Shown here: piece after piece, positions 5,422 through 31,840 of the stretch
Layout: every line of letters starts with the position of its first letter
Numbering within the stretch: the stretch's first letter is position 1
Assembly: GCA_031285925.1 (NCBI GenBank)
Contig: JAITVG010000101.1
Coordinates: forward strand, 1 to 35,557
DNA length: 35,557 nt
Source of the DNA: Tannerellaceae bacterium
GTDB lineage: Bacteria; Bacteroidota; Bacteroidia; Bacteroidales; Tannerellaceae
Direction: 5' to 3'
The notes under the pieces: model-generated
The model's database searches: none
Told to the model about the DNA's origin: nothing
Seen by the model: the letters and a program-made list of their open reading frames with translations, nothing else
Translations under genes and position numbers: made by a program

Positions 5422-6030
5422 TTATGCCTTTGTATAAATCATTTTATTTTTCATCTCCCAACTGTCAAGTATTTGCCTCCCTTTCCCGGTGCTTATTCCA
5501 TGAAGGAAAATAGTCAGTACCGTGTCGTATACCTCTCTGTTTGAATACCGGCAAAATGTTTTCGACGGTTGGAGCATTTGAGCCTGTTCCTCGAACAGAA
5601 GGGCAACGATTTCGAAATTTACTTCTTTCCGGAACACGCCTTCTTTCACTCCCCGATCGAACAGGTAGATACATTTTTTTATATAACTGTTCTTTCCCGT
5701 TTCTACCTCTTCCTGTGCTCTGGGGTATTTCTTCAAATCTTCATAAAATTTCAGGCTATACCACCGGGGATTTTTCATTATCTCGGCGTAGATCAGAATA
5801 AAGATGTCGAGAGCCGTATAGTCTCCCTTCTCTATCTGGTGCAAATGTTCCGCCAGTTGCCGGTGTGCATATTTCAATCCTTCCACCAGCAAGTCTTCCT
5901 TGTCAGCGAAATATTCATACAGCGTACGTTTGGATATGCCTGCGCTGCAAGCAATATCATCCATACTTACCCGCTTTATTCCGTATTGAGCGAATAAATC
6001 CAATGCCGTTGATATGATTTTCCCTTTCAC
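5422..6030 (-). CDS. TetR/AcrR-family transcriptional regulator
   Basis: 202 aa; N-terminal TetR HTH (ISTALDLFAQYGIKRVSMDDIACSAGISKRTLYEYFADKEDLL); first gene of the efflux operon. Confidence 0.92.
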   Translation of the reverse strand: MKGKIISTALDLFAQYGIKRVSMDDIACSAGISKRTLYEYFADKEDLLVEGLKYAHRQLAEHLHQIEKGDYTALDIFILIYAEIMKNPRWYSLKFYEDLKKYPRAQEEVETGKNSYIKKCIYLFDRGVKEGVFRKEVNFEIVALLFEEQAQMLQPSKTFCRYSNREVYDTVLTIFLHGISTGKGRQILDSWEMKNKMIYTKA

Positions 6031-6201: not shown

Positions 6202-7104
6202 ATGGCAAATCTTCCGGTAATTGAGATGACGGTTGTGAGCGATCTTATAACCGCAACCGATAGTTTTCAGGACATGCTGACGGTAGCGGATGTAGATGCA
6301 ACTATTTCGATTAAACGATATGAATTTGAAGGCTATACGGATCCGGTTCGTTTGAATGCCCTTTTCCTGATACTGGTGTTGAAAGGGGAGGCGAAAATCA
6401 GTCTGGACTATATACATTATACCATTAGCCCGAATATGCTTGTTACCGTAATGCCCGTACATATTCTTCAGGCAGCCGAAGTCAGTCCCGACTTCAAGGC
6501 GGTGATGATCATGATCCACCGCTCTTTCCTTGAAGGATTGAATATAGCCCAACGCACACCTTCGATGACCAACTACATGCTTCTTCGTAAAAACCCCTGC
6601 ACAAATCTGTTGCCGGAAGAAACATTGCATTTGGAGAACTGTACCCGGCAATTGCGCGAGAAGATACACCGGCGCACACATGCCTTTCATAAGGAGCTTA
6701 TGCAAAACGCCTTTGTCGCACTGATGTTGGAGATGGCCGATATTATGGTGGGAAAGAAGGATACGGTTGTACACCGCACACTGTCGCGCAAGGAAGAAAT
6801 CATGAATAAATTCGTGAACCTTCTCATCCGGCACGGCAAGCGCGAACATCATGTGTCTTTTTATGCGGCGAAACTGTTCATCACTCCCCAGTATCTGTCC
6901 CTGATCCTGAAGGAACTGTCCGGAAAGTCGGCCAATAAATGGATTGACGAAGCGCTTGTGATGGAAGCCGGGATATTGTTGAAGACGCCGGAACTGACGG
7001 TACAGCAGGTGGCCGACGAATTAAACTTCTCCGACCAGTCTACCTTCGGCAAGTTCTTCAAGAAGAATACAGGCCTCTCTCCGATGGAATACAGGAAAGT
7101 GTGA
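6202..7104 (+). CDS. AraC-family transcriptional regulator
   Basis: 300 aa; C-terminal AraC HTH (VQQVADELNFSDQSTFGKFFKKNTGLSPMEYRK). Confidence 0.93.
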   Translation: MANLPVIEMTVVSDLITATDSFQDMLTVADVDATISIKRYEFEGYTDPVRLNALFLILVLKGEAKISLDYIHYTISPNMLVTVMPVHILQAAEVSPDFKAVMIMIHRSFLEGLNIAQRTPSMTNYMLLRKNPCTNLLPEETLHLENCTRQLREKIHRRTHAFHKELMQNAFVALMLEMADIMVGKKDTVVHRTLSRKEEIMNKFVNLLIRHGKREHHVSFYAAKLFITPQYLSLILKELSGKSANKWIDEALVMEAGILLKTPELTVQQVADELNFSDQSTFGKFFKKNTGLSPMEYRKV

Positions 7105-7177
7105 TTACTAATGTTCTGCTATTTCACTTCAATATCTTTGCTTAACCGGATGTCTGCGGAGGAAGCTCCGGCCATCA
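7039..7177. repeat. Left copy of the duplicated araC 3'-end / GH3 3'-end junction
   Basis: 7039-7080 matches 14954-14995 (3 mismatches in 42); 7120-7177 matches 14996-15053 (1 mismatch in 58). The right copy lacks 7081-7119. Confidence 0.9.
7120..7177 (-). pseudogene. 58-bp relic of a GH3 gene 3' end
   Basis: Reverse complement reads ...MAGASSADIRLSKDIEVK*, versus ...MAGASSADIRLSKEIEVK* at the end of the intact GH3 CDS (14995-17178). Confidence 0.85.
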
Positions 7178-7182
7178 CGCAC

Positions 7183-7271
7183 ACACACAGCACATTGCGA
7201 AATGTGAAAAAGTGTTTCTATATATAGTACGCGCTCGTACTACCTATACAACGGCGCCGTACTATAGGTAG
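7183..7271 (+). repeat. 89-bp repeat element, left copy; inverted relative to 18953-19041
   Basis: Reverse complement of 18953-19041 aligns over 89/89 positions without gaps and with about 4 mismatches; contains cacatt-gcga-aatgtg, tagtac-gcgctc-gtacta and acctata..ggcgcc..tataggt hairpins. Confidence 0.9.
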
Positions 7272-7348
7272 TACGCGCTCATACTACCCCATACTTTTTT
7301 ATACAATACTTCGTTAAACTTTCATTTTACTTTTTAATTTTGCCAAAT

Positions 7349-7921
7349 ATGGAAACCAGAGATATATCGGAAATAGACAAACTCTTTTGGCAGATAGCGT
7401 TAAAGGACGATGAGGGCGCTTTCCGCTCTTTGTTTCTTGATTATTTTTCTTCGCTTTGTGTTTTTGCACACAGGTATATCGAAAGTTGGGAAACGTGTGA
7501 AGATGTAGTGCAGGATACCTTTTATAAAATATGGAAAAACCGCAGGAAACTGGAAATAAGCGCTTCGGGCAGGAATTTTTTGATTACCAGCGTGCGGAAC
7601 GGCTGCATCGACTATCTGCGCAGAAAAGAAACGGAAACCTTATGGAAAGAAAAAGAATTGCAGCATAACACGATATATGCCGCGGAAAATATTTACTCGA
7701 CAACAGAACTGGAAGAAATCTTAAATTCGGCATTGAAACGTTTACCTGAAAATGTGCGCACAGTGTTCGAACAAAGCCGTTTTGAAGGGAAAACTTATGC
7801 GGATATTGCCTCCGGACAATCTATTTCGGTCAAGACGGTGGAAGCCTACATGACGAGGGCATTGAAACAATTGCGCATAGAACTTAAAGATTATTTGCCA
7901 CTGATTTTACTTTTTCTGTAA
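7349..7921 (+). CDS. RNA polymerase ECF-type sigma-70 factor
   Basis: About 190 aa; sigma-70 region 2 (YIESWETCEDVVQDTFYKIWKNR) and region 4 (LKRLPENVRTVFEQSRFEGKTYADIASGQSISVKTVEAYMTRALKQLR); followed by FecR and SusC. ORF track start at 7340 is TTG; ATG at 7349 preferred. Confidence 0.93.
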   Translation: METRDISEIDKLFWQIALKDDEGAFRSLFLDYFSSLCVFAHRYIESWETCEDVVQDTFYKIWKNRRKLEISASGRNFLITSVRNGCIDYLRRKETETLWKEKELQHNTIYAAENIYSTTELEEILNSALKRLPENVRTVFEQSRFEGKTYADIASGQSISVKTVEAYMTRALKQLRIELKDYLPLILLFL

Positions 7922-7981
7922 AAAAAACTTTTTTCATAGGGTACAGCTCCACCTGTACGTCTATTTTTAAAATTAAATGTA

Positions 7982-9010
7982 GTGAACATCACCACGCAAC
8001 ATATATTAGCCTATCTGGATAAAGAATTGTCGACGGAAGAAAGGTATGATTTCGAGAAAACGCTGGAGTCTTCGGCCGAATTGCGGCAGGAATTGGAGGA
8101 AATACGTTTGGCCTGGGAAATGACTGCCGAATTGAAAATGCACAAACGAATCAACACAGCAAAAAACTGGAAAGAATTATCCCGTAGAATAACGGTCGAG
8201 AAATTTCGGAGAAAATTATGGATATTTACACGTAACACTGCCGCCATATTCTTGTTGCCGTTCATGATCGCTGCCCTTTTATTATTCAAAGGCGTAAAAG
8301 AACGTGATCATGCACCTGCTGAGCAGATAGAACTTACGTCGGCCAACGGGCTTGTGTCGAAAGTTTCATTATCTGACGGATCGGAAGTCTGGCTTAACTC
8401 CGGTTCAAAACTGTCTTATCCGCAACGGTTTAAAGAAGGTATCCGTGAAGTTTCCCTTTCCGGAGAAGCCTATTTTAAGGTAAAAGCCGACGATGAAAAC
8501 CGCTTTGTCGTACTTGCCGGCGAGAAGTTGTCGGTAAGCGCTTACGGCACGGAATTTAATATATGCGCATACGAAGATGAACAGACGATCGAAGCGACCC
8601 TGGTTGCCGGAAATATAGAAGTAAGTGTCGTTGCGGACGAAAAGTCCGGAAAAACAAAGATCCTTCGCGAACAGCAAGCCGTGTTTGATAAAGAAAGCGG
8701 AAAATTAACCGCCGGCAGAATCAATGTGGCGGTAGAAACTTCATGGAAAGACGGGAAAATGCTATTTCGCAGAGCAAACATGAAGGAGATAACACGCTGC
8801 CTGTCGCATCATTTCAATGTAGACATATATTTACAGGGCGAAGAACTGCATGACTATGAATATTCCGCAACTTTTACGACAGAAACCCTGGAAGAAATAC
8901 TGTATTTGCTGGAGAAGTCATCGCCTATAAAAATAGAGATAATATATCCGGAACAAGCGGATAATTATTCGTATACAAAACGTTCGGTAGTAATAAGTAT
9001 AAAAGAATAA
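7982..9010 (+). CDS. FecR-family anti-sigma factor (GTG start)
   Basis: 342 aa; FecR core (LTSANGLVSKVSLSDGSEVWLNSGSKLSYPQRFKEGIREVSLSGEAYFKV); one TM segment; C-terminal DUF4974-like region; adjacent to ECF sigma. Confidence 0.92.
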   Translation: MNITTQHILAYLDKELSTEERYDFEKTLESSAELRQELEEIRLAWEMTAELKMHKRINTAKNWKELSRRITVEKFRRKLWIFTRNTAAIFLLPFMIAALLLFKGVKERDHAPAEQIELTSANGLVSKVSLSDGSEVWLNSGSKLSYPQRFKEGIREVSLSGEAYFKVKADDENRFVVLAGEKLSVSAYGTEFNICAYEDEQTIEATLVAGNIEVSVVADEKSGKTKILREQQAVFDKESGKLTAGRINVAVETSWKDGKMLFRRANMKEITRCLSHHFNVDIYLQGEELHDYEYSATFTTETLEEILYLLEKSSPIKIEIIYPEQADNYSYTKRSVVISIKE

Positions 9011-9218
9011 GAGAGATGAAATAAAACGAGTTGTAATCTTAAATTGATATACCTATGGGAAAGTAAATTATGAAGGACAAAAAAAACGGGAACATGTAAA
9101 ATGACATCTTCCCGTAATATCAAACTCTGTTACCGATCCGAAAATCTCACCTGACGAACGGTAACAAATCAAGTAAGTACTGTAAACTTAATTAATTAAA
9201 TTTGACAATGTTAAAGAT

Positions 9219-12200
9219 ATGAAGAATCTACTATCAAACAAAGGGTTCAGGTTAAATTACAACTTGATTCCTAAAATCCCAAATTTTATGCGAATAGCCT
9301 TATTGCTTTTATTTGTTATTGCACTTCAGGCCGGAGCAAATTCTCTTTATTCCCAGTCCGCCAAAGTGAGCCTTGAAATGAATAATGCTACTGTGGAAGA
9401 AATTCTTAATACGATTGAAGAAGAATCGGAATTTTATTTTTTGTACAACAGTAAGCTCGTTGACGTAGACCGAAAGGTAAGTGTTAATGTGAAATCACAG
9501 TCTGTTGAAACTGTTTTAGACCAGTTATTTGCTTCAACTGATGTAACCTATAAGATTGAAGACAGGCAAATTATTTTAAGTAAAAAAGAATTTGCAGGAA
9601 ATGAACTCCAGCAAAACAAAAAGACGGTAAGCGGCGTTATTGTAGATAATCAGGGAGAGCCTGTTATCGGAGCAAGTATTGTTGAATCCGGTACGACCAA
9701 TGGTGTTATTTCGGATGTGGACGGCAAATTCAGTATCAGTGTTTCACAGGATGCCATGCTGCAAGTTTCATATATCGGATATGCGGCGCAAACTATCAGT
9801 ACAGCCAATCAGACGAGCCTCCAAATAGTGTTGTTGGAAGATACGCAGGTGTTGGATGAAGTAGTGGTTGTAGGCTACGGCACAGTGAGGAAGAAAGACT
9901 TGACGGGGGCGGTTATTCAGGTTCGCCCCGACCGTTTAGCTAACGAAAATCCTCAAACCATCCAGGATGTGTTGCGCGGAACAGCCGGTTTGAATGTAGG
10001 GATGAGCAATGATGCAAAGGGGGGCGGCTCACTCAATATCCGCGGACAACGTTCGGTTTACACCGATGGTGGTCATAATGACCCATTGTTAATCCTTGAC
10101 GGTATGCAATTCTATGGCGAACTGTCAGAAATCAATCCGGATGATATAGAGCAAATTGACATACTGAAAGATGCCTCTTCGGCTGCCATTTATGGAGCCA
10201 AAGCTGCTAACGGTGTGATTATCATCACCTCAAAAAAAGGTAAAAGCGGCAAGCCTGTCGTGAATTTTACAGGTAGCCTGGGATTGACTACGCGTGCGGA
10301 TTATGAGCGTTATTTCACCGCTGATGAGTATCTGCAACACAAGGTAGACTACTATGAATCGAATACCTTTGGGGTAAATTCTGCCGGTCAATGGTCGCCT
10401 TATCAAACAGGTTCAATTGCAAATAGGCCTTATTATTACACCAACTACAAAAATCTGCCTGAAAGCATCAGTCTGGATCAATGGCGTGGCTATACACAGA
10501 ACGCCGCAGGCGAAAGCGATGAGAGTATTTGGGCAAGACGCATCAACTTTCATGATGAATTGCTTGATAACTATCTGGCAGGCATGTATGTGAATTGGGA
10601 AGACTATGTCTATCGAACGGGTATACAACAGGATTATAATATAAGTGTAGGTGGTGCTTCGGATAAAGCGAACTATTACCTTTCTGCAGGTTACCTGGAC
10701 AATCAGGGAGTGCGTAATGGAAATGATTACAGTACTGTCCGTGTCAATATGAAGTTGAACATGGATGTCACGAAATGGTTCTCCATTGGCGCCAATGTCA
10801 ACTTTCAGGATCGTACAGACGGAGACAACTATAATCCTGAAGGAATGAGAGGTAACGCGCCTTGGGCTAATCGCTACGATGAGAATGGTGACTTGGCGCA
10901 ATACACTTTACCCAGCTATAGTATGAGAGGGAACGCATCCGACTTTAATGCAAGATACCAAGAATTGGAGAAAGGGTATACCGTATTCAACACTCAATTC
11001 AACGCAAAGGTGAAGTTGCCGTTTAACATCACTTACCAATTTAATGCTTCTCCGCGCTACCAATTTTTTTACGACCGTTATTTTACTTCACAGGAATTAC
11101 CCGATTCAAACCCTGTGGATCGTGGTGTGAACCGTGAACAAAGTAAGAGGTTCGACTGGTCGTTAAACAATACCATTACTTGGGATCAGACTTTTGCCGA
11201 AAAGCATCATGCGGTAGTGACTTTGGTACAGGAAGCTGAAGAGCGTCGCTTTTGGAAAGATCGAATTGAAGCACGAGATATACAACCTTCAGATGCACTC
11301 GGGTTCCACAATACGGAGAATGGTAATCTCGAAAACAGCAAATTTTCTTCTGAAGATACCCATGAAACGGCTGATGCTTTGCTCGCCCGTCTGCAATATA
11401 CCTATGATGACCGTTACCTGCTTACCGCTTCCGTACGTCGCGATGGCTATTGCGCATTCGGTGGAAACAATCCTTATGCCACGTTCCCTTCCGTAGCGTT
11501 GGGTTGGACATTTACCAATGAGGAGTTTTGGCAGTGGCAGCATATAATGGACTATGGTAAACTTCGCGTGTCATACGGCAAGAATGGAAACCGTTCGTTG
11601 GCTAACCCCTATTTGGCGCTCTCTAATCTGACAACAGGCAAATACATGGGATATATTTATAATAGCACGATCAACGATATGACATATCTGAGAGTTGAAC
11701 GTTTGGCCAATCCGAATTTGCAATGGGAAAAATCACAGGCATGGAATATTGGCCTCGACTTCGGTTTCTTGAATCAGCGTATCTCGGGTAGCATCGAGTA
11801 CTACAATACACAGACCAAAGATATGATTATGTATCAGAGACTACCTCAGTTCATTGGTTTCGGTGGTATCAACACGAACCTCGGACAGGTAGATAATAAT
11901 GGCTTCGAGTTGACCATCAACTCAAAGAATATGGATTTGCCCAATTTTCAATGGAATACACAGTTTGGTTTTTCTTACAATAAAAACAGGATTGTGCACC
12001 TCTATGGTGAGTACGATGAGAACGGCAAGGAGATGGACGATACTTCAAACGGATGGTTTATCGGCAAATCCATCAACGAGATTTGGGATTATAAGGTGAC
12101 GGGTATTTGGCAAAAAGACCAGATAGAAGATGCTGCCAAATATGGCCAAAAGCCGGGTGACCCGATTGTGTGGAACAACCCCGACAATGATATCAATAAT

Positions 12201-12749
12201 GAAGATGGTACGACTACTATCGTATATGACAACGACGATAAGCAGTTTCTCGGTAAACGTACAGCTCCTATCAATTGGTCCCTGCGTAACGACTTTATCC
12301 TATTTAAAAACATCTCGGTAGGATTCAGCATATACTCATACATGGGACATAAACAACACCGCGAAGGCACCTATGATAGCGATGCTTTCCTTAACAATGA
12401 CAATGGTGGCGGTTTCTTGGAATATGGAATGTACAACCAACCCTGGAAGCGTTACTGGACAATTGACAACCCCGAAACAATGATGGGCCGTATCAATGCC
12501 GTCGGGCCTACAGGTGCGGAAAAGCCCAACCTCTATCTGAACCGTTCTTTTGTACGCTTTGACAATCTCTCGATTGCCTACACCCTACCCAAGGCCTGGG
12601 TAGAGAAACTTCAAGTGAGCAACGTGAAAGTACATGCCAACGTGAAGAATATAGGCACTATCCACTCCGGTGATTGGTACTATGGTGACCCTGAGAATAT
12701 TGGGGTTTCCACTCGCACTTATACCTTCGGTCTTAATGTAACATTCTAA
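9219..12749 (+). CDS. SusC/RagA-family TonB-dependent outer membrane receptor with N-terminal STN domain
   Basis: 1176 aa; STN (VSLEMNNATVEEILNTIEEESEFYFLYNSKLV), carboxypeptidase-like domain, TonB-box/plug (EVVVVGYGTVRKKDLTGAV), SusC signature; followed by SusD. Confidence 0.96.
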   Translation: MKNLLSNKGFRLNYNLIPKIPNFMRIALLLLFVIALQAGANSLYSQSAKVSLEMNNATVEEILNTIEEESEFYFLYNSKLVDVDRKVSVNVKSQSVETVLDQLFASTDVTYKIEDRQIILSKKEFAGNELQQNKKTVSGVIVDNQGEPVIGASIVESGTTNGVISDVDGKFSISVSQDAMLQVSYIGYAAQTISTANQTSLQIVLLEDTQVLDEVVVVGYGTVRKKDLTGAVIQVRPDRLANENPQTIQDVLRGTAGLNVGMSNDAKGGGSLNIRGQRSVYTDGGHNDPLLILDGMQFYGELSEINPDDIEQIDILKDASSAAIYGAKAANGVIIITSKKGKSGKPVVNFTGSLGLTTRADYERYFTADEYLQHKVDYYESNTFGVNSAGQWSPYQTGSIANRPYYYTNYKNLPESISLDQWRGYTQNAAGESDESIWARRINFHDELLDNYLAGMYVNWEDYVYRTGIQQDYNISVGGASDKANYYLSAGYLDNQGVRNGNDYSTVRVNMKLNMDVTKWFSIGANVNFQDRTDGDNYNPEGMRGNAPWANRYDENGDLAQYTLPSYSMRGNASDFNARYQELEKGYTVFNTQFNAKVKLPFNITYQFNASPRYQFFYDRYFTSQELPDSNPVDRGVNREQSKRFDWSLNNTITWDQTFAEKHHAVVTLVQEAEERRFWKDRIEARDIQPSDALGFHNTENGNLENSKFSSEDTHETADALLARLQYTYDDRYLLTASVRRDGYCAFGGNNPYATFPSVALGWTFTNEEFWQWQHIMDYGKLRVSYGKNGNRSLANPYLALSNLTTGKYMGYIYNSTINDMTYLRVERLANPNLQWEKSQAWNIGLDFGFLNQRISGSIEYYNTQTKDMIMYQRLPQFIGFGGINTNLGQVDNNGFELTINSKNMDLPNFQWNTQFGFSYNKNRIVHLYGEYDENGKEMDDTSNGWFIGKSINEIWDYKVTGIWQKDQIEDAAKYGQKPGDPIVWNNPDNDINNEDGTTTIVYDNDDKQFLGKRTAPINWSLRNDFILFKNISVGFSIYSYMGHKQHREGTYDSDAFLNNDNGGGFLEYGMYNQPWKRYWTIDNPETMMGRINAVGPTGAEKPNLYLNRSFVRFDNLSIAYTLPKAWVEKLQVSNVKVHANVKNIGTIHSGDWYYGDPENIGVSTRTYTFGLNVTF

Positions 12750-12762
12750 CAAATTCGTAATT

Positions 12763-14784
12763 ATGAACAAGATGAAATATATCAATAAAATTTGGGGGAT
12801 CATTCTTATTGGAGCAACTGTTATGGTGAGCAGTTGCAGTGAAAATTTTCTCGAACCCGACCCGCTGTCGTTCTATGAACCTTCGGCAACATTTACTACC
12901 GAGGCCGGTCTGAAAGCGGCATTGGCGCAAGCTGATCGCAATATGAAGCTCTATTACACCACCAGTTCGGATGTACTCCTGCCTATCGCTACGGAATTTG
13001 TTTTCTCGGATATGCTTGTTGTTAGCGCAACCGACAAACAGTCACAGATCAGCGATATTGCCAATATGCTGGTGCCCAGTACAGGTGTTTACAATACTGC
13101 TAACGATGGCGCTCGCATGCACAGTATTATTCACTTTTGGAACGAGAATTACGCAGGTATCAAGTATGCCAATACGGTGCTCGATTATGCTCCCCACGTA
13201 ACAACTTTGTCTGAAAAGATCAGGAACGAGTATGTCGGACGCGCTTATTTTCATCGTTCTTTTCGCTACTATGCGATGGTTCATCAGTTTGGAGATGTAC
13301 CCTTAGTGAGCAAACTGGTCGAAGTACCCAAGCAAAATTATCGCTCCACAAAGCGAGAAGCCATTCTTCAGATGATTGAAATTGACATGGAGAAAGCCAT
13401 AGAATGGGTGCCTGAGCAACCTGTCGGTAGCTACACAGTCGGCTATCCCGGCGGTTATATAAATAAGGCAGCCTGCCGCATGTTGCTTGCTAAAATCTAT
13501 ATGGCTAATGGTAAATTCCAGGAGGCTAAGGCTCAGCTTGACATTCTCATTGACCAAAGCGGCTTCAGACTGATGACCGAACCGTTTGGCACAGAAGTAC
13601 AACCTGCTGCTTCGGAAACGTGGAAGGTAGAACGCAACGTTATTTGGGATCTCCACCGTGGCGAAAATATCTATAATGCCGCCAATACGGAACTGATTTT
13701 GGGTATACCCAATCAAGGTGAGAACATTGTGGGTTACACAATTATGCGTTGTCTATCTCCTTTTGTGTTCAACGGCGCTTTGGCAAGCCCGTCAGGCAGA
13801 CAGGGTCTGCAGAACTACAACCGTAGAGACGGCAAGTACAATGCCGAGTATGACTATCAACGCGTGTTCGGTCGTGGCGTAGCTTCCATGCGTCCTTGTA
13901 CTTGGGCGCAGTATGGATTGTGGGAAGTGAACGACAAAACGGATGAGGGTGACCTGCGGCACAGCCGCAAGGCAGGCAACTGGCTCCACATGGGCGACTT
14001 GAAGTACAATAACAAAGACGATCAGGAATGGTTTGGAAAGAACCTCCGTCTATTCGACGACGAAGGTAATCTGCTTTGTAATGACACGATTCGCCGTTGG
14101 TACGACATTCCGCTGTATAAATTCTACTACTACGATAAGGTGCAAGACGACAATCTGAGTTCGGACGGTTTCCGTGGTGCACAAAGGGGTAGTATCGGTG
14201 ACCTCTATCTCTATCGTTTGGCAGAGGCTTATCTGCTGCGTGCAGAGGCTAAATTCTATATCAACCCAAGTGATCCGGGGATTGCCGACGATGTAAACAT
14301 CATCCGCGAACGTGCTCAATGTGAGCAGCTCTACACTGCAGGGCAAGTGACTATCGGCGATATCTTCGACGAACGTGCTCGTGAACTTTACCTAGAAGAG
14401 TGGCGTCACGTTGAGTTGGTTCGCGCTTCTTTCGGCCTTGCTATCAGTGGTCGGCAGGATGAATGGGGAAATACTTACAGCCTTGATAACCTAACCAAGC
14501 AGAGCGGTACCGACCAGTCTGGTGGTAGTTACTGGTATCAGCGTTGTATCAAAAATAATTTCTACAACGATGGTATTACCCGAAATGTAGTTGCTTCCGG
14601 ACAGTCATCCATCAACTACACCATGGATAAGAAAAACATGTTCTGGCCTATTCCCGAAGTGGCCATTACATCAAATAACAAGGGTAAACTCTTTCAAAAT
14701 TATGGTTACAGCGGCTACGATGAAAGTATTTCAGTTTGGGATAACTGGGAAGATGCGGTAGCAAATGAAGACATAATAGAATAA
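12763..14784 (+). CDS. SusD/RagB-family nutrient-binding outer membrane lipoprotein
   Basis: 673 aa; lipoprotein signal (GATVMVSSCSENFLEPDPLS); SusD-like TPR features; immediately downstream of SusC. Confidence 0.95.
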   Translation: MNKMKYINKIWGIILIGATVMVSSCSENFLEPDPLSFYEPSATFTTEAGLKAALAQADRNMKLYYTTSSDVLLPIATEFVFSDMLVVSATDKQSQISDIANMLVPSTGVYNTANDGARMHSIIHFWNENYAGIKYANTVLDYAPHVTTLSEKIRNEYVGRAYFHRSFRYYAMVHQFGDVPLVSKLVEVPKQNYRSTKREAILQMIEIDMEKAIEWVPEQPVGSYTVGYPGGYINKAACRMLLAKIYMANGKFQEAKAQLDILIDQSGFRLMTEPFGTEVQPAASETWKVERNVIWDLHRGENIYNAANTELILGIPNQGENIVGYTIMRCLSPFVFNGALASPSGRQGLQNYNRRDGKYNAEYDYQRVFGRGVASMRPCTWAQYGLWEVNDKTDEGDLRHSRKAGNWLHMGDLKYNNKDDQEWFGKNLRLFDDEGNLLCNDTIRRWYDIPLYKFYYYDKVQDDNLSSDGFRGAQRGSIGDLYLYRLAEAYLLRAEAKFYINPSDPGIADDVNIIRERAQCEQLYTAGQVTIGDIFDERARELYLEEWRHVELVRASFGLAISGRQDEWGNTYSLDNLTKQSGTDQSGGSYWYQRCIKNNFYNDGITRNVVASGQSSINYTMDKKNMFWPIPEVAITSNNKGKLFQNYGYSGYDESISVWDNWEDAVANEDIIE

Positions 14785-14800
14785 TCTCTAAATCCTTTTT

Positions 14801-14953
14801 GAGGGTGTGTCAAAAGTCAATAAAAGAGATTAAAACACAGAGGCACGGAGGACACGGAGTTTTTTATTTTACTCATTATCAGAATAATAATAAAACTTCG
14901 TGTCCTCTGTGCCTCTGTGTTTAATCTCTTTAAACGACTTTTGACACACCCTC
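14801..14953. repeat. Large imperfect palindrome (~65-bp arms), 'ACACAGAGGCACGGAGGACACGGAG' family
   Basis: Left arm gagggtgtgtcaaaagtcaataaaagagattaaaacacagaggcacggaggacacggagtttttta; revcomp of right arm gagggtgtgtcaaaagtcgtttaaagagattaaacacagaggcacagaggacacgaagttttatta. Confidence 0.93.
14801..14953. terminator. Possible bidirectional transcription terminator between convergent susD and GH3
   Basis: Long stem with T/A-rich centre lying between two convergent genes; termination itself is inferred. Confidence 0.4.
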
Positions 14954-14995
14954 TCTACTTTCGGCAAGTTCCTCAAGAAGAATGCAGGCCTCTCT
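14954..14995 (+). pseudogene. 42-bp relic of an AraC-family gene 3' end
   Basis: Reads STFGKFLKKNAGLS versus STFGKFFKKNTGLS in the intact AraC gene; 39/42 nt identical to 7039-7080. Confidence 0.85.
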
Positions 14996-17178
14996 TATTT
15001 CACTTCAATCTCTTTGCTTAACCGGATGTCTGCGGAGGAAGCTCCGGCCATCAGTTTTACCTTTCCCGGCTCTATAACGTAAGAGTCTTTGTCGTTATCC
15101 CAATATGCCAGATCGTCGGCGGTCAGGGTGAAGCTGACTGTTTCGCTTTCGCCTTTTCGTATCATCGAACGTTGGAACCCTTTCAATTGTTTGATCGGCC
15201 TTACTACTTTCGAGCGGGGGAAGGATACATATAATTGCACAACCTCTTCGCCGTCCCTGTCGCCCGTATTCTTTACCTTGAGCGACACCGTGATGTCTTT
15301 TCCTTTCGTCAGGGTAGGGGAGGATACCGTAATATCCGAATAGTTGAATCTTGTATAGCTCAATCCGTATCCGAAGGGGTAAAGGGGTTTCTCTTTGGCA
15401 TACATATATGTTCTGCCGTTGCGGATGTCGTAGTCCATCATTGGGGGCAGATCGGCGATGGACTTCACCCATGTCTGGTTTGTTCTTCCCGCCGGATTGA
15501 AGTCGCCGAAGATCACGTCGGCAAGCCCGTTGCCCAGCTCCTGACTGTTGTTCGTGATGTGCAGGATGGCAGGTACGTTTTCCTGCGACCAGTTGATGGC
15601 GAACGGAAAACTGCTGACGAGCACCATCAGTGTATTCGGATTGGCCTTGTGAACTACTTTCACCAGATCTTCCTGTTCAAGCGACAATGCTTTGCGGTCT
15701 ACCGCCTCGCGCCCGTCGCTCGGTACGGGTGAGTATTTCCATCTGGGTTCGGTGCCGTATACATGATTACCCACGCAAACGATGGCTATGTCGGCTTTTT
15801 GCGCTGCGATATATGCCTTGTCCATTTCGTTCGAGGGTTCATAGATTACTTCCACGCTGTTTCCCACCGCATTTTTTATTCCCTGCAATACGGATACGGC
15901 GTAAGGAGGCGTTCCGCTATACCAATCGAGCAATACCTCATTCGCACGGGGGCCTATGACTGCTATGGATTTTATCCGGCTCTTGTTTAGCGGCAGCAGG
16001 TTCTTTTCATTCTTCAGCAGAACTGCGGACTTGGCCGTTACCAGGCGCACGAAATCCTGTACTTCCCTGTTCCGCCAAACGGAAACCGTATCCGTCACTC
16101 CGATGTGCGCATACGGGAGCTTTGTCTGGTCGGCATCCAGCAATCCCAATTTCAGCGCGACATAGAAATTGCCCCGGATGGCTTTGTCTATATCCGCTTC
16201 CGAAACCAATCCTTTTTCAAGGGCTTCGTATATATAAGGCTTGTAAGTGTCGAGAAACTGCCCTACACCGGCCTTGACCACCGCCGCGCTGCCTTCGGTG
16301 TGTGTAGGGAATGCCTTATGCGCCGATATAAGGAGGTTCAACGCTCCGCCGTCGGTACAGATAATCCCTTTCATGTTCCATTCCCTGCGTATCTTTTCGA
16401 ACACGGGATGAATCGTCATCGGTATGCCGTTCCAGCTGTTGTATGCCGCCATGAATGCCTGCGATCCTCCTTCTTCGATCCCTTTCCGGAAAGGATAGGA
16501 GTAGTATTCGTTGAACAGCCGGTTATCGAAGTCGGAAGAAGTAGAATCCCGCCCGTCTTCGTTGCTGTTGGCCAGAAAATGCTTCATTAAAGATGCCGAT
16601 TTCCAATAGCGGGGATTATCTCCCTGCAACCCCTTTACAAAAGCGACTACCATTTCCGATACCAGATAAGCATCTTCTCCATAGCTTTCTTCCGTGCGCC
16701 CCCAGCGCGGATCGCGTGCCAGGTCTGCATTCGGCGCTCTCATCACCATGCCGCCTTTTGCGTATTTACCGTTTTGCGTGTAGAACCTTACTTCGGTAGC
16801 TTCTATATCCGCCACCTTGCGTATCACTTCCGTATCCCAGGTTTCCCCCAGTCCGTAGGCTTGCGGAAAAGTCGTAGTCGGATAGGTATCCGCCACCCGC
16901 TGGTAGTTTACCATCTTGAATCCGCCCCAGTTGCCCGGCCCACCAAGCGCCATGCCGTGAAGCCCTTCGGAATGTCCTGTGCTGCGGATGCCCAGGCGGG
17001 GTACGCCCAGATCGGTGGACAGGGCGTTCACTTTCTCGTCTATCGTCATCAGCGACAGGAGATTGTCCAGTCGCCTGTCATCGCTTAAAGATGTATCCTG
17101 AAACGGATAAACATGCTGCTGCGCAGATAAAAGGCAGGCAGATAAAATACAGAAAACAGACAATGCAATTCTTTTCAT
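14995..17178 (-). CDS. Glycoside hydrolase family 3 (beta-glucosidase/beta-xylosidase-like), secreted
   Basis: 727 aa; signal peptide; GH3 N-domain (MVMRAPNADLARDPRWGRTEESYGEDAYLVSEMVVAFVKGLQG; GIICTDGGALNLL) plus C-terminal and Fn3-like domains. Confidence 0.94.
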   Translation of the reverse strand: MKRIALSVFCILSACLLSAQQHVYPFQDTSLSDDRRLDNLLSLMTIDEKVNALSTDLGVPRLGIRSTGHSEGLHGMALGGPGNWGGFKMVNYQRVADTYPTTTFPQAYGLGETWDTEVIRKVADIEATEVRFYTQNGKYAKGGMVMRAPNADLARDPRWGRTEESYGEDAYLVSEMVVAFVKGLQGDNPRYWKSASLMKHFLANSNEDGRDSTSSDFDNRLFNEYYSYPFRKGIEEGGSQAFMAAYNSWNGIPMTIHPVFEKIRREWNMKGIICTDGGALNLLISAHKAFPTHTEGSAAVVKAGVGQFLDTYKPYIYEALEKGLVSEADIDKAIRGNFYVALKLGLLDADQTKLPYAHIGVTDTVSVWRNREVQDFVRLVTAKSAVLLKNEKNLLPLNKSRIKSIAVIGPRANEVLLDWYSGTPPYAVSVLQGIKNAVGNSVEVIYEPSNEMDKAYIAAQKADIAIVCVGNHVYGTEPRWKYSPVPSDGREAVDRKALSLEQEDLVKVVHKANPNTLMVLVSSFPFAINWSQENVPAILHITNNSQELGNGLADVIFGDFNPAGRTNQTWVKSIADLPPMMDYDIRNGRTYMYAKEKPLYPFGYGLSYTRFNYSDITVSSPTLTKGKDITVSLKVKNTGDRDGEEVVQLYVSFPRSKVVRPIKQLKGFQRSMIRKGESETVSFTLTADDLAYWDNDKDSYVIEPGKVKLMAGASSADIRLSKEIEVK

Positions 17179-17206
17179 ACCCTATAATAGTTGTAAGTGT
17201 TATACA

Positions 17207-18829
<1,623 letters not shown>

Positions 18830-18952
18830 TTAGACAGGCAAGGCGGTAATGATTCATATAACAGCCCTCTATCCGGCCGTTAAGGTAAACTTATGTTGCA
18901 AAAAGGAGTAATTAATGATAGTTGGATTTTCTATTAATAGTATTTCTTCGTG

Positions 18953-19041
18953 CTACCTATAGTACGGCGCCGTTGTATAGGTACTACGCGCTCGTACTAT
19001 ATATAGAAACACTTTTTCACATTTCGTAATGTGCTGTGTGT
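18953..19041 (-). repeat. 89-bp repeat element, right copy; inverted relative to 7183-7271
   Basis: See left copy; gap-free alignment with inverted orientation. Confidence 0.9.
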
Positions 19042-19122: not shown

Positions 19123-19154
19123 GTTGTATAATTATATAACTGCGCTTATATTTG
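19123..19154 (+). promoter_or_regulatory. Candidate Bacteroidota promoter for the toxin-antitoxin/HTCS operon
   Basis: GTTG (19123-19126), 20-bp spacer, TATATTTG (19147-19154; TAnnTTTG), 4 bp upstream of the toxin ATG. Confidence 0.4.
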
Positions 19155-19158
19155 CTCC

Positions 19159-19490
19159 ATGAGAAAGATAATAGCTTACAAAGGGTACTTTTCTGACTTT
19201 ATGTCTAAATTGCAAGAGCATGAAAGAAAAAAATATCAAAAGCATTACTGCTATTTGAAACAGAAGACAAGATTCCGGCTCACTATATTAGCTTTATAAG
19301 AGACGGAGTATATGAGTATCGCGTAAACTATGGGAGCAATGAATTTAGAATATTATTTATATACGACGGAAATGACATAGTGATTCTATTCAACGGCTTT
19401 AGAAAGAAAACACAGAAAACTCCTAATAACGAAATCGAAAAAGCGATAAAATTAAAAGCAGAATACAATGGAACTAAAAGAAATCAGTAA
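19159..19490 (+). pseudogene. HigB/RelE-type (phage-derived Gp49-like) toxin, interrupted by a frameshift at a 7-A tract
   Basis: Frame 1 gives MRKIIAYKGYFSDFMSKLQEHERKK then stops at 19297-19299. Shifting -1 at 19227-19233 continues as KKISKALLLFETEDKIPAHYISFIRDGVYEYRVNYGSNEFRILFIYDGNDIVILFNGFRKKTQKTPNNEIEKAIKLKAEYNGTKRNQ* to 19490, overlapping the antitoxin start. Could instead be a functional recoded gene. Confidence 0.75.
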
Positions 19491-19773
19491 GGATGTTTAC
19501 GATGTAAGCGGATACCTTGCAAAAGAATTTGGAGAGATCGGATCTCCTGAGCGGGAAGAATCCACGAAAAAGGCATGGGAAGAGTACAATGCTCAAATAT
19601 TATTGGATGCCCGTAAAAATGCCAGACTAACACAAGAGGAACTGGCTAAACGTATAGGAGTAGACAAAGGATACATTTCAAGAATAGAAAGAGGAATTAT
19701 CGTTCCTACTGTATCTACATTATACCGCATTGCATCAGCTATGGGATTGACCGTAGAATTACGTCCGATGTGA
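19468..19773 (+). CDS. XRE-family (HigA-like) antitoxin
   Basis: 101 aa; HTH_3 (ARKNARLTQEELAKRIGVDKGYISRIERGIIVPTVSTLYRIASAMGLTVEL) directly downstream of and overlapping the toxin frame. Confidence 0.88.
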   Translation: MELKEISKDVYDVSGYLAKEFGEIGSPEREESTKKAWEEYNAQILLDARKNARLTQEELAKRIGVDKGYISRIERGIIVPTVSTLYRIASAMGLTVELRPM

Positions 19774-19776
19774 TAA

Positions 19777-22700
19777 ATGATACGATTAATCCTTACATTA
19801 TCGGCCTTCTGTTGCTTCGCCATTCTCTCCGGCGCAAACGAATTTGCGTTCAAGCACTTGGAAATAAACGACGGGCTTTCCAACAGCCAGATCAATTATA
19901 TCACCAAAGATTCGCGCGGCTTCATGTGGTTCTCCACCTCCTACGGGCTTAACCGCTACGACGGCTATGTATTCAAAGTCTTTACCCGCAACAGCAACGA
20001 CCCTCATTCACTGCCCGATAATTATGTACACGACGTGCAGGAAGATGCCGACGGATTGCTTTGGATACGCACGGAAAATGCGGGATATGTCTGTTATGAT
20101 CCGCAGAAGGAAACATTCCGGCCGGCAGGGCCTCTGTTGGAAGAGAAATACGGAATTCCGGATGCACCCGGGCGGATGTACGTGGACAAGGGAAAAAACA
20201 TCTGGTCGTATGCCTATAACGGAACACATTGCTACGATATAAAGGAAAAGAAACTTCACTTCTATCCGGCTGAAGAGGTGTATAAGGAACAGGGCGTAAG
20301 CCTTCTCGCTTTTGAGGAAGATGAAAATGCCGTCGTGCTGCTCTATTCCAACGGTTATTTCGAGTTGATAAGCCGGAAGACGAAAGAAATAACGCACCGC
20401 AACCGGACGCTTGTCAATACCGCGAGCGTTGAACACCGGAAATACGGAATACTCGTCGATGCGGACGGCGACTATTGGCTGTATGGTGATAATGAAGTGT
20501 GGCTCTACTCCGTCGGCGAAGACAAATGGCAACAGGTCAGCACCCGGAAAGACTCCCCCTACGTACTCTCTTCCGGAAGCAACGTGAACGCAATAAAAAA
20601 GGATGCGGAAAACCGGATATGGATAGCCATGGATCACGGAGGCATCAACATCGTCGATAAAAACCTGCACACAGTAAGGCTTCTTCAAAACGACGTATTC
20701 AACGAAAGCAGCATTTTGCAGAACAGCATAAATGCACTCTACTGCGACGAAACCGGCGGAATGTGGGTGGGCTACTACAAGAGAGGGATTTCCTATTACA
20801 ACGAAAGCATATTCAAGTTTCGCACCGACTACCTGTCCGAATTCAACCGGATCGGGAATTTCACATCCGATGTGAATACGATTGTTGAAGACAAGCAGGC
20901 CAACCTGTGGGTAGGAACCAGCAGCGGCCTTGTATTCATCAACCGTGAAACCGATGAACGGAAGATATACCGCCACGAATCAACCGGAAATTCCCTGTCG
21001 GGAGATGTAGTGGTAAGCGTGCTGAAAGCGAAAGACGGGAAAACGTGGATAGGCACTTTCCTCAACGGGCTTAATGCTTTCGACGGACAGACTTTCACCC
21101 GGTACAGGCATCAACCGGACAATGCCAATTCCTTGAGCCACGACAATGTATGGGCACTGGCCGAGGGCGACGACGGATATATCTGGATAGGCACGCACGG
21201 AGGCGGACTGCAGGGACTCGACCCGCGCACGGGGAAGTTCACTACCTGTTCCAAGCCGGGTACGGGATATGACACGGAGTATATAACATCCGTTTTCGTA
21301 GGGCGCGACGCAAACATATACATGGCCACGACCAACGGCATAACCGTCTATTCGTCGGCGACCGGTACATTCGAGAAATGGCTTACAAATAAAAAGGGGA
21401 CGCAAAGTTTTTTGCATCCGAGGCTGAATGAAATATATGAGGATAGCCGGGGGCTGCTTTGGGCTGCTACGGCCGAAGGGCTTAATGTGTACGACCGCAG
21501 ACGGGATGAAATCACTGTGCCCGTGAAAGAGCCGCCTCTGGGAAATGAAATCATTCAGGCCATCATAGAGGATAACGATAAAAACATGTGGGTAACTACA
21601 ACCAGCGGCATATTCAACCTCGTGGTAAACATTGATCCGAAAACGGGGATGTATACTTACGCCTGCCATCGCTATGGTGAATTGGACGGCTTGCGAGGGC
21701 AGCAGTTCAACGCGCGTGCCATAGTCAAGACCTTCCGGGGGGAAATCATATCGGGAGGTATCCGGGGAATAAACTTTTTCGATCCCGCCGGATTAAAATA
21801 CAACAGCAACGCTCCCAAAATAGAATTTACGGGATTGCAACTGTTCAACCGGGAGGTTAAGATAGACGGCGTATATAACGGAAACCGCATCTTAACCCGG
21901 CCACTTAACTATACAGAGTGTATCCGCCTGAAATACAAGCAAAATGTGTTTTCCGTTTTCTTCTCGGCAATGAATTATGTGTTGCCGGAAAAGACCGGAT
22001 ACATGTATATGCTCGAAGGATTTAATCACGATTGGCTTACTACGAATAATAACAACCTGACATATACCAATCTGTCGGCAGGAGAATACGTGCTGAAGGT
22101 GAAGGCTATCAATAGCGACGGTTTCAGCAGCCGGGAAACATCCGAACTCAAGATCATCATCGAACCTCCTTTCTGGGCATCGCCTGTTGCATACGTATTG
22201 TACTTCTTCCTCATAGTCGGCATATTCTTTTTAGTACGCAGGGAAATACTGCACAACGAACGACAAAAGTACCAGCTGGCACAGATCAGGCAGGAAGCTC
22301 AACAAAAGCATGATATCGACGATGTGAAGCTGCGCTTCTTCACCAATATCAGCCATGAGTTGCGCACTCCGCTCACGCTGATTATCTCTCCGCTGGAGAA
22401 TGTGATAAGCCGGATTGCAGACGACGACCAAAAAAACAAGTTGGAGATGGTACACCGCAATGCCCTGCGGTTGCTCGATATGGTTAATCAGCTGCTCGAC
22501 TTCAGGAAGAGCGACGTGAAAGGGCATCGCTTCAATTCGTCGCAGGGAGATATTGTTGATTTCATCCGTAAGGTCAGCTATTCGTTCAATGAATACTCGG
22601 AAAAGAAGAATGTGCGCTTTTTCTTCTTCTCGGCAGTCGAGGAAATGTTTATGGCATTTGATGAAGACAAGATGGGCAAGATTATAATGAACCTGTTGTC

Positions 22701-23889
22701 CAATGCCTTTAAGTTTACCCTTGACGGCGGCAGGGTAGACGTTTCGCTGGATTGCCTGCCGGCTACGGAAGAACAGCCGGAACTGTTTGAAATTAAGATT
22801 TCGGATACAGGCGTAGGCATTAAAGACGAAGACAAAGCACTCATATTCGAACGCTTTTATCAGGCTCAACAGAAAGGAGGGCAGAAAACAGGCGGCAGCG
22901 GCATCGGGCTGCATTTGGTGAAAGAATTTGTTTCCCTGCACAACGGTTCTGTTACCGTGCTCGACAACGTGAGCAAGGGGAGTGTGTTTATAATCACACT
23001 TCCGATAGTTCGCGCACAGACGGCACAGGAACAGGAAGCCAAAGCGATACCGGAAGGCACGGAAGCACCTGTGGAGATGCCTTCGGCCGACGATGTTCCG
23101 ACCGGTAATGCCGCTGACAGGGAGAAGGAATTGCCGATTGTCCTTATTGTCGATGACAATGAAGATTTTCGTCATTTCATGCGCGACAGTTTAAATTCGG
23201 AATACAGGGTGGAAGTTGCCGCAGACGGCGCGAAAGCATGGGCGATAATCCCGGAACTGCAACCGGATGTTATCGTAAGCGATGTGATGATGCCGGAAAT
23301 GGACGGGAATGAGTTGGCCAAATTAGTGAAGACGGACATACGCACCTCACACATCCCCTTGATCCTGCTAACCGCCCGTTCGGCTAAAGAGCATCAACTG
23401 GAAGGATTGGAAAGCGGAGCGGATGATTACATCACCAAGCCGTTTGAATTTAATATATTGAGTTTACGCATTAAAAGGCTGCTGAAGCTCCGCCAAAAGC
23501 GGCAGGAGAATTTTAATCCGCGGATGGAGATTGCTCCCGCTGAAATAACAATCACTTCACTGGACGAGAAGTTGATACGGAAAGCCATCCGCTACGTGGA
23601 AGACAATATCGACAGAAGCGAACTTTCGGTGGAAGAACTTAGCAGCGAACTGAATATGAGTCGGGCGCATCTGTATAAAAAAATTCTATCCATCACGGGA
23701 AAAACACCGATAGAGTTCATACGTGTCATCCGGCTGAAGCGTGCCGCACAGTTTCTGCGTGAAAGCCAGCAAACGGTGTCCGAAATTGCTTATCAGACCG
23801 GGTTCAGCAATCCGAAGTTCTTTAGGAAATACTTCAAGGAAGAGTTTGGTATTCTGCCTTCCGAGTATCAGGACAAAAAGGGGAAATAG
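19777..23889 (+). CDS. Hybrid two-component system (HTCS) sensor/regulator
   Basis: 1370 aa; signal peptide, two-component propeller repeats, Y_Y_Y domain, TM, HisKA (FFTNISHELRTPLTLI), HATPase (GGSGIGLHLVKEFV), receiver (VLIVDDNEDFRHFMRDSL...SDVMMPEMDG...KPFEFNIL), AraC HTH at the C-terminus. Confidence 0.97.
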   Translation: MIRLILTLSAFCCFAILSGANEFAFKHLEINDGLSNSQINYITKDSRGFMWFSTSYGLNRYDGYVFKVFTRNSNDPHSLPDNYVHDVQEDADGLLWIRTENAGYVCYDPQKETFRPAGPLLEEKYGIPDAPGRMYVDKGKNIWSYAYNGTHCYDIKEKKLHFYPAEEVYKEQGVSLLAFEEDENAVVLLYSNGYFELISRKTKEITHRNRTLVNTASVEHRKYGILVDADGDYWLYGDNEVWLYSVGEDKWQQVSTRKDSPYVLSSGSNVNAIKKDAENRIWIAMDHGGINIVDKNLHTVRLLQNDVFNESSILQNSINALYCDETGGMWVGYYKRGISYYNESIFKFRTDYLSEFNRIGNFTSDVNTIVEDKQANLWVGTSSGLVFINRETDERKIYRHESTGNSLSGDVVVSVLKAKDGKTWIGTFLNGLNAFDGQTFTRYRHQPDNANSLSHDNVWALAEGDDGYIWIGTHGGGLQGLDPRTGKFTTCSKPGTGYDTEYITSVFVGRDANIYMATTNGITVYSSATGTFEKWLTNKKGTQSFLHPRLNEIYEDSRGLLWAATAEGLNVYDRRRDEITVPVKEPPLGNEIIQAIIEDNDKNMWVTTTSGIFNLVVNIDPKTGMYTYACHRYGELDGLRGQQFNARAIVKTFRGEIISGGIRGINFFDPAGLKYNSNAPKIEFTGLQLFNREVKIDGVYNGNRILTRPLNYTECIRLKYKQNVFSVFFSAMNYVLPEKTGYMYMLEGFNHDWLTTNNNNLTYTNLSAGEYVLKVKAINSDGFSSRETSELKIIIEPPFWASPVAYVLYFFLIVGIFFLVRREILHNERQKYQLAQIRQEAQQKHDIDDVKLRFFTNISHELRTPLTLIISPLENVISRIADDDQKNKLEMVHRNALRLLDMVNQLLDFRKSDVKGHRFNSSQGDIVDFIRKVSYSFNEYSEKKNVRFFFFSAVEEMFMAFDEDKMGKIIMNLLSNAFKFTLDGGRVDVSLDCLPATEEQPELFEIKISDTGVGIKDEDKALIFERFYQAQQKGGQKTGGSGIGLHLVKEFVSLHNGSVTVLDNVSKGSVFIITLPIVRAQTAQEQEAKAIPEGTEAPVEMPSADDVPTGNAADREKELPIVLIVDDNEDFRHFMRDSLNSEYRVEVAADGAKAWAIIPELQPDVIVSDVMMPEMDGNELAKLVKTDIRTSHIPLILLTARSAKEHQLEGLESGADDYITKPFEFNILSLRIKRLLKLRQKRQENFNPRMEIAPAEITITSLDEKLIRKAIRYVEDNIDRSELSVEELSSELNMSRAHLYKKILSITGKTPIEFIRVIRLKRAAQFLRESQQTVSEIAYQTGFSNPKFFRKYFKEEFGILPSEYQDKKGK

Positions 23890-26917: not shown

Positions 26918-26931
26918 CGAAGCAAGGGAGT

Positions 26932-26950
26932 AAACACAGAGGCACGGAGG
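26932..26950. repeat. Short fragment of the 'ACACAGAGGCACGGAGG' repeat family
   Basis: taaacacagaggcacggagg, shared with the arms of 14801-14953 and with 31752-31840. Confidence 0.65.
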
Positions 26951-27031
26951 GGCGAGCATTATTGCGGTATCGTTTTTTATTCGACGCGCTTATAAATCAC
27001 TATTTTGCTTGCTCGTTTATTTGGGCTTATA

Positions 27032-27204
27032 CCTGCATTATTCATACTAATCGAGTGAAAGTACCCGAACGAAGTGAGGGGGAGGTGGTTGGAGAGTGAG
27101 TTATCCAACCACCTCCCGGCTCGTACCTTGCCGTACTCCTTCTTATCCAAGGAGGAGAGCCTCGCGAAAGTGCCTTTCACTCGGTTTAGTATGAATAATA
27201 CAGG
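27032..27204. repeat. MITE-like 173-bp element with ~30-bp terminal inverted repeats and internal hairpin
   Basis: Ends cctgcattattcatactaatcgagtgaaag and revcomp cctgtattattcatactaaaccgagtgaaag; internal perfect 14-bp stem gggaggtggttgga/tccaaccacctccc (27080-27093/27104-27117). Confidence 0.75.
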
Positions 27205-27235
27205 CTAAATGTTTTTTCAAAAACTACATAGAAAC

Positions 27236-27243
27236 TATATTTG
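27236..27243 (+). promoter_or_regulatory. Candidate -7 element TATATTTG upstream of dipeptidyl peptidase III
   Basis: TAnnTTTG match 18 bp upstream of the ATG. Confidence 0.35.
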
Positions 27244-27260
27244 CAAATAAAACAAGAGAT

Positions 27261-31751: not shown

Positions 31752-31840
31752 GGCTGCACCAAAAGTCGATTTAAGAGATTAAACGCAGAGGCACGGAGGA
31801 CACGGAGTTTTTACATTTCCCCTCCGTGCCTCCGTGTTAT
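31752..31840. repeat. Partial copy of the 'CAGAGGCACGGAGGACACGGAG' palindromic repeat family
   Basis: caaaagtcgatttaagagattaaacgcagaggcacggaggacacggagttttt matches the left arm of 14801-14953; right arm shortened to cctccgtgcctccgtgtta. Confidence 0.85.

Follow-up and report, generated by a model that had tools for sequence, protein, structure and literature searches.

Polysaccharide utilization loci (PULs) and accessory islands lie between core-gene 'nodes' in Bacteroides, and homologous recombination between the flanking core genes has been proposed for them (Pudlo et al. 2022; PMC8845570). Here we describe a locus from a Tannerellaceae bacterium (assembly GCA_031285925.1, contig JAITVG010000101.1, positions 1 to 35,557; this whole stretch of 35,557 nucleotides is referred to as the window) in which genes for an extracytoplasmic function (ECF) sigma factor, a FecR anti-sigma factor, a SusC-like transporter and a SusD-like protein stand between an araC-family regulator and a family 3 glycoside hydrolase (GH3), with the 3' ends of these two genes duplicated directly on either side. 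As in the Bacteroides islands, a glycan-use segment without mobile-element genes adjoins a conserved core gene (araC) whose neighbour varies; unlike them, the segment is bounded by a direct duplication and by dispersed repeats, and it is a sub-module beside an existing enzyme cluster. The block resembles other ECF sigma/FecR-regulated SusCD operons in holding sigma, FecR, STN-domain SusC and SusD in one operon, but differs from the orthologous operons of relatives in that their closing GH88 gene is missing.

Insertion sequences, transposons and integrative conjugative elements, which transpose with target-site duplication, likewise leave a block between direct repeats. The target duplications of ordinary transposition are, however, far shorter than 139 bp, and the present block departs from such elements in its 139-bp duplication, its non-matching ends and its lack of a recombinase. 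In the DNA duplication associated with inversion the copies reportedly lie inverted around an inverted segment, whereas the copies here are direct. What the locus shares with that process, as it is cited in PMC8963470 (Furuta et al. 2011), is a short gene-end duplication at rearrangement breakpoints.

A repeat search of the window shows that the 3' segment of araC (7039-7080) is copied at 14954-14995 (39/42, 93% identity) and that the 3' segment of GH3 (14996-15053) is copied at 7120-7177 (57/58), the latter within a longer pairing of 7115-7177 with 14991-15053 (95%). Both sites have the two parts in identical order and orientation, that is, as a direct duplication. The left copy retains a complete junction (araC stop, 14-bp spacer, GH3 stop) with the two parts 39 bp apart (7081-7119); in the right copy they abut, and the missing 39 bp hold the final araC codons with their TGA stop, together with the spacer that leads up to the GH3 stop. 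The left relic translates to ...AGASSADIRLSKDIEVK followed by a stop, against ...AGASSADIRLSKEIEVK and a stop at the end of GH3, and tblastn of the intergenic stretches places residues 707-727 of GH3 downstream of araC and residues 280-293 of AraC next to GH3 (E-values in Table 1). When the right junction was searched against the whole of this genome, the left pieces were recovered at E = 3e-22 (58 bp) and 5.9e-11 (42 bp), and in a search of 125 family genomes the GH3-end part had a good match solely in this window, so the duplication is neither chance nor a dispersed repeat. The junction duplication apparently amounts to ~139 bp, leaving on each side a decaying copy, 100-140 bases long, of the joined gene ends; the longest perfect match between the two copies is ~43 bp. 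An initial annotation, made from the letters alone, had already described these duplicated ends, the 39-bp deficit on the right and the identities of AraC, ECF sigma, FecR, SusC, SusD and GH3, all of which hold, the identities (and that of a GH43 gene) by Pfam. The position of the breakpoints at repeats, the core context of araC with its varying neighbour and the missing GH88 gene were not part of it.

A dispersed palindromic repeat lies at each edge of the block. Repeat B starts directly after the end of the left relic (7177) and spans ~7178-7300, and the right relic (from 14954) directly follows the end of repeat A (14953); both breakpoints are therefore at dispersed, hairpin-capable repeats. 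Repeat B is a palindromic intergenic sequence of ~110 bp with ~100 candidate copies in this genome and ~10 in its sister G002; the only other match among the family genomes searched is a partial one in G114. Aligned copies place its left edge a few bases further out (consensus ~CTAACAC); the left join seems to cut slightly into the repeat, and a 2-bp overlap (CA) is possible there. A second copy at 18929-19041 is inverted relative to the one at 7178-7300, 11.65 kb away. Repeat A, also a multi-copy palindrome, occurs at ~40 places in this genome and is predicted to fold into a near-perfect hairpin of ~150 nt (z -18.5). It consists of a core, CACAGAGGCACGGAGGACACGGAG, with outer arms, GAGGGTGTGTCAAAAGTC, and the outer arms are missing from many copies, as would be expected of one element nested in another; partial copies within the window lie at 26924-26963 and 31760-31812. 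In being short, multi-copy, non-coding and palindromic, A and B both resemble miniature inverted-repeat transposable elements; no consistent target-site duplication was seen by eye in the aligned edges of either. No Rfam family matched in the window, so neither repeat is recognised as a known RNA, and a literature search on these repeats and on PUL insertions with long direct duplications found nothing on point. As operons in this genome often have such repeats at their intergenic ends, the association of repeats with breakpoints is suggestive of a cause but not proof of one. If A and B do promote such events, they should be enriched at breakpoints between this genome and its sister species.

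When the same SusCD block was sought at other loci, sigma-FecR-SusC-SusD was found as a separate, stand-alone operon in three relatives (G084, G092 and G082), with identities of 67-70% for sigma, 58-60% for FecR, 62-64% for SusC and 55-56% for SusD, and with upstream neighbours that differ between G092 and G082. In all three the operon closes with a GH88-family enzyme (Pfam-tested in two). This gene is absent from the block in the window, and no orthologue of it was found elsewhere in the 80%-complete genome, with positive controls in the three relatives. The window's other intergenic stretches hold no trace of the operon or of GH88, and no second trace of GH3 or araC, by tblastn. Among the four proteins of the block (sigma, FecR, SusC and SusD by Pfam) there is no recombinase, transposase, integrase or relaxase, and its ends, being two different repeats, show no matching terminal inverted repeats. 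Since there is no mobility gene and the longest perfect match between the junction copies is so short, a currently mobile cassette is unlikely. A plasmid vehicle was also considered and rejected, as plasmid records contain no SusC of at least 60% identity.

The flanks of the block have separate histories. At the left of the window, several small genes, HlyD, OMF, TetR and araC form one block that is conserved in each of the first ten relatives read and in others read subsequently, while the gene 3' of araC varies, being unrelated in most relatives and another SusC/SusD in G008 and G009; in G007 other SusC/SusD genes lie 5.5 kb from araC. Since unrelated SusC/SusD genes stand on the 3' side of araC in other relatives (L106, L107, L108), this side may have received glycan-use loci repeatedly. 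The right end of the window, from an M49 peptidase to adenylosuccinate synthetase (AdSS), is core too, but located elsewhere in sister genomes, where the gene before M49 looks like mnmA in three of them (from N-terminal sequence only). Because this gene differs in the sisters, the GH31/M49-AdSS junction (26917-27261), which has a partial repeat A nearby, is another lineage-specific breakpoint.

G082 (UBA8128, L021) has GH3, a hybrid two-component sensor (HTCS) and GH31 ordered and oriented as in the window, but no GH43 and no SusCD block there, and its GH3 is 89% identical to that of the window; the GH43-GH3 pair is present in L026 and L041. In G082 this cluster and the sigma-SusCD operon are on different contigs (C274 vs C327), and because that genome has the two apart, and the window's order without the block, the module was probably inserted beside GH3 in the present lineage. 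The UBA8128 GH31 (L021:2506-5280) matches that of the window in two pieces, 76% and 84%, with a weaker stretch between, in one open reading frame. Three components that occur separately elsewhere, namely a core flank, a glycosidase cluster and an import module, are thus combined in this locus.

Four substitutions separate the two junction copies, and a direction can be assigned to two of them: a Phe kept by relatives is Leu in the araC relic, and a Glu kept by the closest relatives is Asp in the GH3 relic. Since both scorable changes are derived in the relics, they favour decay of a useless copy over the slightly diverged donor to which the substitutions had been tentatively ascribed. With four changes in 100 sites besides the 39-bp loss, the event is not recent, though these differences provide no clock.

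As a base rate, 0.9 Mb of this genome (102 pieces) contains 11 direct duplications of at least 30 bp and at least 85% identity that are 0.5-16 kb apart and not multi-copy, including the two at the araC/GH3 junction. One other, at L223 (2913-4082 and 12592-12674), is a clear gene-end case: a Fic-type gene is flanked by a second, 45-bp copy of the 3' end of the gene before it. Relics of this Fic-family gene's own 5' and 3' ends are also nearby, the 5'-end relic being 9.6 kb away. Two weaker cases are a 68-bp direct duplicate (96%; L204:295-362 and 7397-7464) that flanks a 7.1-kb stretch of large genes and is readable as a gene end (RELTTFAVAEV, then a stop), and a 362-bp direct duplicate (89%; L186:184-536 and 5433-5792) that repeats a SusC 5' region to either side of a SusC/SusD pair and may be left over from a tandem SusCD array. 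Five pairs (tRNAs, a 507-bp repeat, a hairpin and an intergenic repeat) came from 0.44 Mb of the sister genome G002, and on inspection none was a gene-end relic. Scars of this sort are uncommon in this genome, though not confined to the araC/GH3 site; that it has a recurrent, recombinase-free mode of cassette insertion duplicating 45-140 bp of a neighbouring gene end seems to us quite doubtful.

The explanation that we favour, with a probability of about 0.55, is a one-step insertion of the sensing and import operon with an overlap of ~139 bp, by homology-poor joining at hairpin-forming repeats, followed by decay of the relics and yielding a joint locus. It needs a single event. The inserted unit would be the four-gene operon with repeat B on its left and repeat A on its right, and the target would be the space between the convergent 3' ends of the core araC and of the GH3 of a GH3-GH43/HTCS-GH31 locus already in place. 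Most likely the ends were joined by replication template switching, or perhaps by another illegitimate recombination at the hairpin-forming repeats, with a self-overlap that would have left the araC/GH3 junction on both sides; the two unused gene ends would then have decayed, the right junction losing its 39 bp, and the resulting locus would couple sigma/FecR-controlled import to HTCS-controlled glycosidases. The initial annotation had likewise placed the block between araC and GH3, for which the modularity of the block, the collinearity of GH3-HTCS-GH31 with the block-less L021 and the complete left junction all speak, and its picture of an import/sensing cassette swapped into an existing glycan-degradation locus is right in outline, the module being independent; the ancestral empty site, the diverged donor and present mobility find no support.

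Several points weigh against this one-step insertion. The empty site that had been anticipated, or any araC-GH3 adjacency, was found in none of the 125 family genomes, of which >30 GH3 or araC neighbourhoods were read, although several of these genomes are fragmented and absence there is not proof. Another 12 family genomes have a GH3 orthologue, and wherever an araC match is present too, GH3 and the best such match are on different contigs; in G002 (30 contigs) these are two large contigs. The exact junction is absent from viral contigs, and the duplicated ends from all relatives. As no relative has either the duplicated ends or an empty site, the whole arrangement is private to this lineage, and the ancestral convergent araC-GH3 junction would have to be lineage-specific as well; comparison with relatives thus neither proves nor refutes a recent insertion. 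Furthermore, no source copy of the block was found in the 80%-complete genome, whose nearest SusC paralogue has 55-57% identity. The G+C content at third codon positions is low in the block (0.45-0.50, against 0.59-0.65 in its neighbours), yet other SusC/SusD genes of this genome range over ~0.37-0.65, so that the value is not diagnostic of a foreign origin. Template switching, finally, would be read from the breakpoint positions alone.

The same direct relics ending at the repeats, with no external donor, would be predicted if the junction and operon segment had been doubled head to tail and most of the extra GH3 and araC deleted up to B and A, and the duplicate around the SusC/SusD pair in L186 looks like such a remnant. 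The operon must then have pre-existed in the locus, yet relatives have it elsewhere; the other intergenic stretches of the window keep no second trace of operon, GH3 or araC, and more events are required. We regard this tandem duplication as unlikely. Alternatively, a staggered-break inversion may have copied the junction in inverted form, with a second inversion flipping one copy back and leaving the operon between. Short duplications at inversion breakpoints are known in bacteria, to go by the citation of Furuta et al. (2011) in PMC8963470, the inverted repeat B pair spans 7183-19041, and the window's two core flanks are apart in sister genomes, so rearrangements did occur. However, the copies are now direct, two events are needed, and a purely local version must restore GH3 beside HTCS in the G082 order; two inversions are in our view distinctly improbable. 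A local version starting from a sigma-SusCD-GH43-GH3 operon was considered separately and is disfavoured by the L021 gene order.

A single (Campbell-type) crossover with a circular or linear donor carrying the junction and the operon, by homologous recombination after conjugal transfer, would give a direct duplication around the insert in one step, and homologous exchange of loci between Bacteroides has been proposed (PMC8845570); yet such a donor must already have had the operon beside the same junction, which merely moves the problem, and the substitutions are derived in the relics, not common to a donor, which makes this route very improbable. A misjoin of this metagenome-derived contig at repeat A or B is no less improbable: the assembly is fragmented (293 contigs, 80% complete), and both breakpoints are repeats, known assembly break points in Bacteroidota (PMC5771137), but other copies of A and B in the genome are at most about 95-97% identical over part of their length, no identical bridge was seen, and the relics bear private substitutions, so that duplicate ends exist whatever the joins.

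Judged by its protein families, the composite locus would put import and degradation under separate sensors. STN-domain SusC, FecR and ECF sigma together form a trans-envelope sensing and import unit, while glycosidases are controlled by HTCS proteins, which sense oligosaccharides. With the GH88 partner lost and GH3, GH43 and GH31 as neighbours, the locus may have another substrate range than the orthologous operon. How such loci acquire modules for import and sensing without mobile elements is usually deduced from comparisons between strains alone; here a single genome has kept the scar. Shuffling of modules in glycan-use loci has been described before, between core nodes in Bacteroides (PMC8845570); the present locus shows it with unusual clarity and is not a new kind of system.

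Table 1. Features of the araC-GH3 locus and its surroundings (positions in the window).
Feature	Position	Strand	Evidence
araC-family regulator, intact; last gene of conserved family core block	6202-7104	+	Pfam HTH_18; synteny in relatives
araC segment duplicated at 14954-14995	7039-7080	+	39/42
Spacer, 14 bp, araC stop to relic GH3 stop	7105-7118	.	sequence
Left relic of GH3 3' end	7120-7177	-	57/58 to 14996-15053; tblastn E 1.8e-7
Dispersed palindromic repeat B, left edge of block	7178-7300	.	multi-copy in genome
TAATTTTG, promoter-like element inside block	7335-7342	+	sequence resemblance
ECF sigma factor	7349-7921	+	Pfam Sigma70_r2, r4_2
FecR anti-sigma factor	7982-9010	+	Pfam FecR, FecR_C
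SusC-like TonB-dependent transporter with STN domain	9219-12749	+	Pfam
SusD-like protein	12763-14784	+	Pfam
Dispersed palindromic repeat A, right edge of block	14801-14953	.	multi-copy in genome
Right relic of araC 3' end	14954-14995	+	39/42; tblastn E 4e-5
GH3 3' end duplicated at 7120-7177; 39 bp between parts missing here	14996-15053	-	
GH3 glycoside hydrolase, intact	14995-17178	-	Pfam
GH43 glycoside hydrolase	17207-18823	-	Pfam
Repeat B, second copy, in inverted orientation to the left one	18929-19041	.	104 nt, 90%
Hybrid two-component sensor (HTCS)	19777-23889	+	Pfam
GH31 glycoside hydrolase	24044-26917	+	Pfam

Two minor features remain. Inside the block, TAATTTTG resembles what we take to be the Bacteroidetes -7 promoter element (TAnnTTTG), a resemblance only. 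Between GH43 and HTCS (stretch 19150-19773) lies an Xre-type antitoxin-like gene (19468-19773; HTH_3), and upstream of it is an apparent HigB-like reading frame broken by a frameshift.

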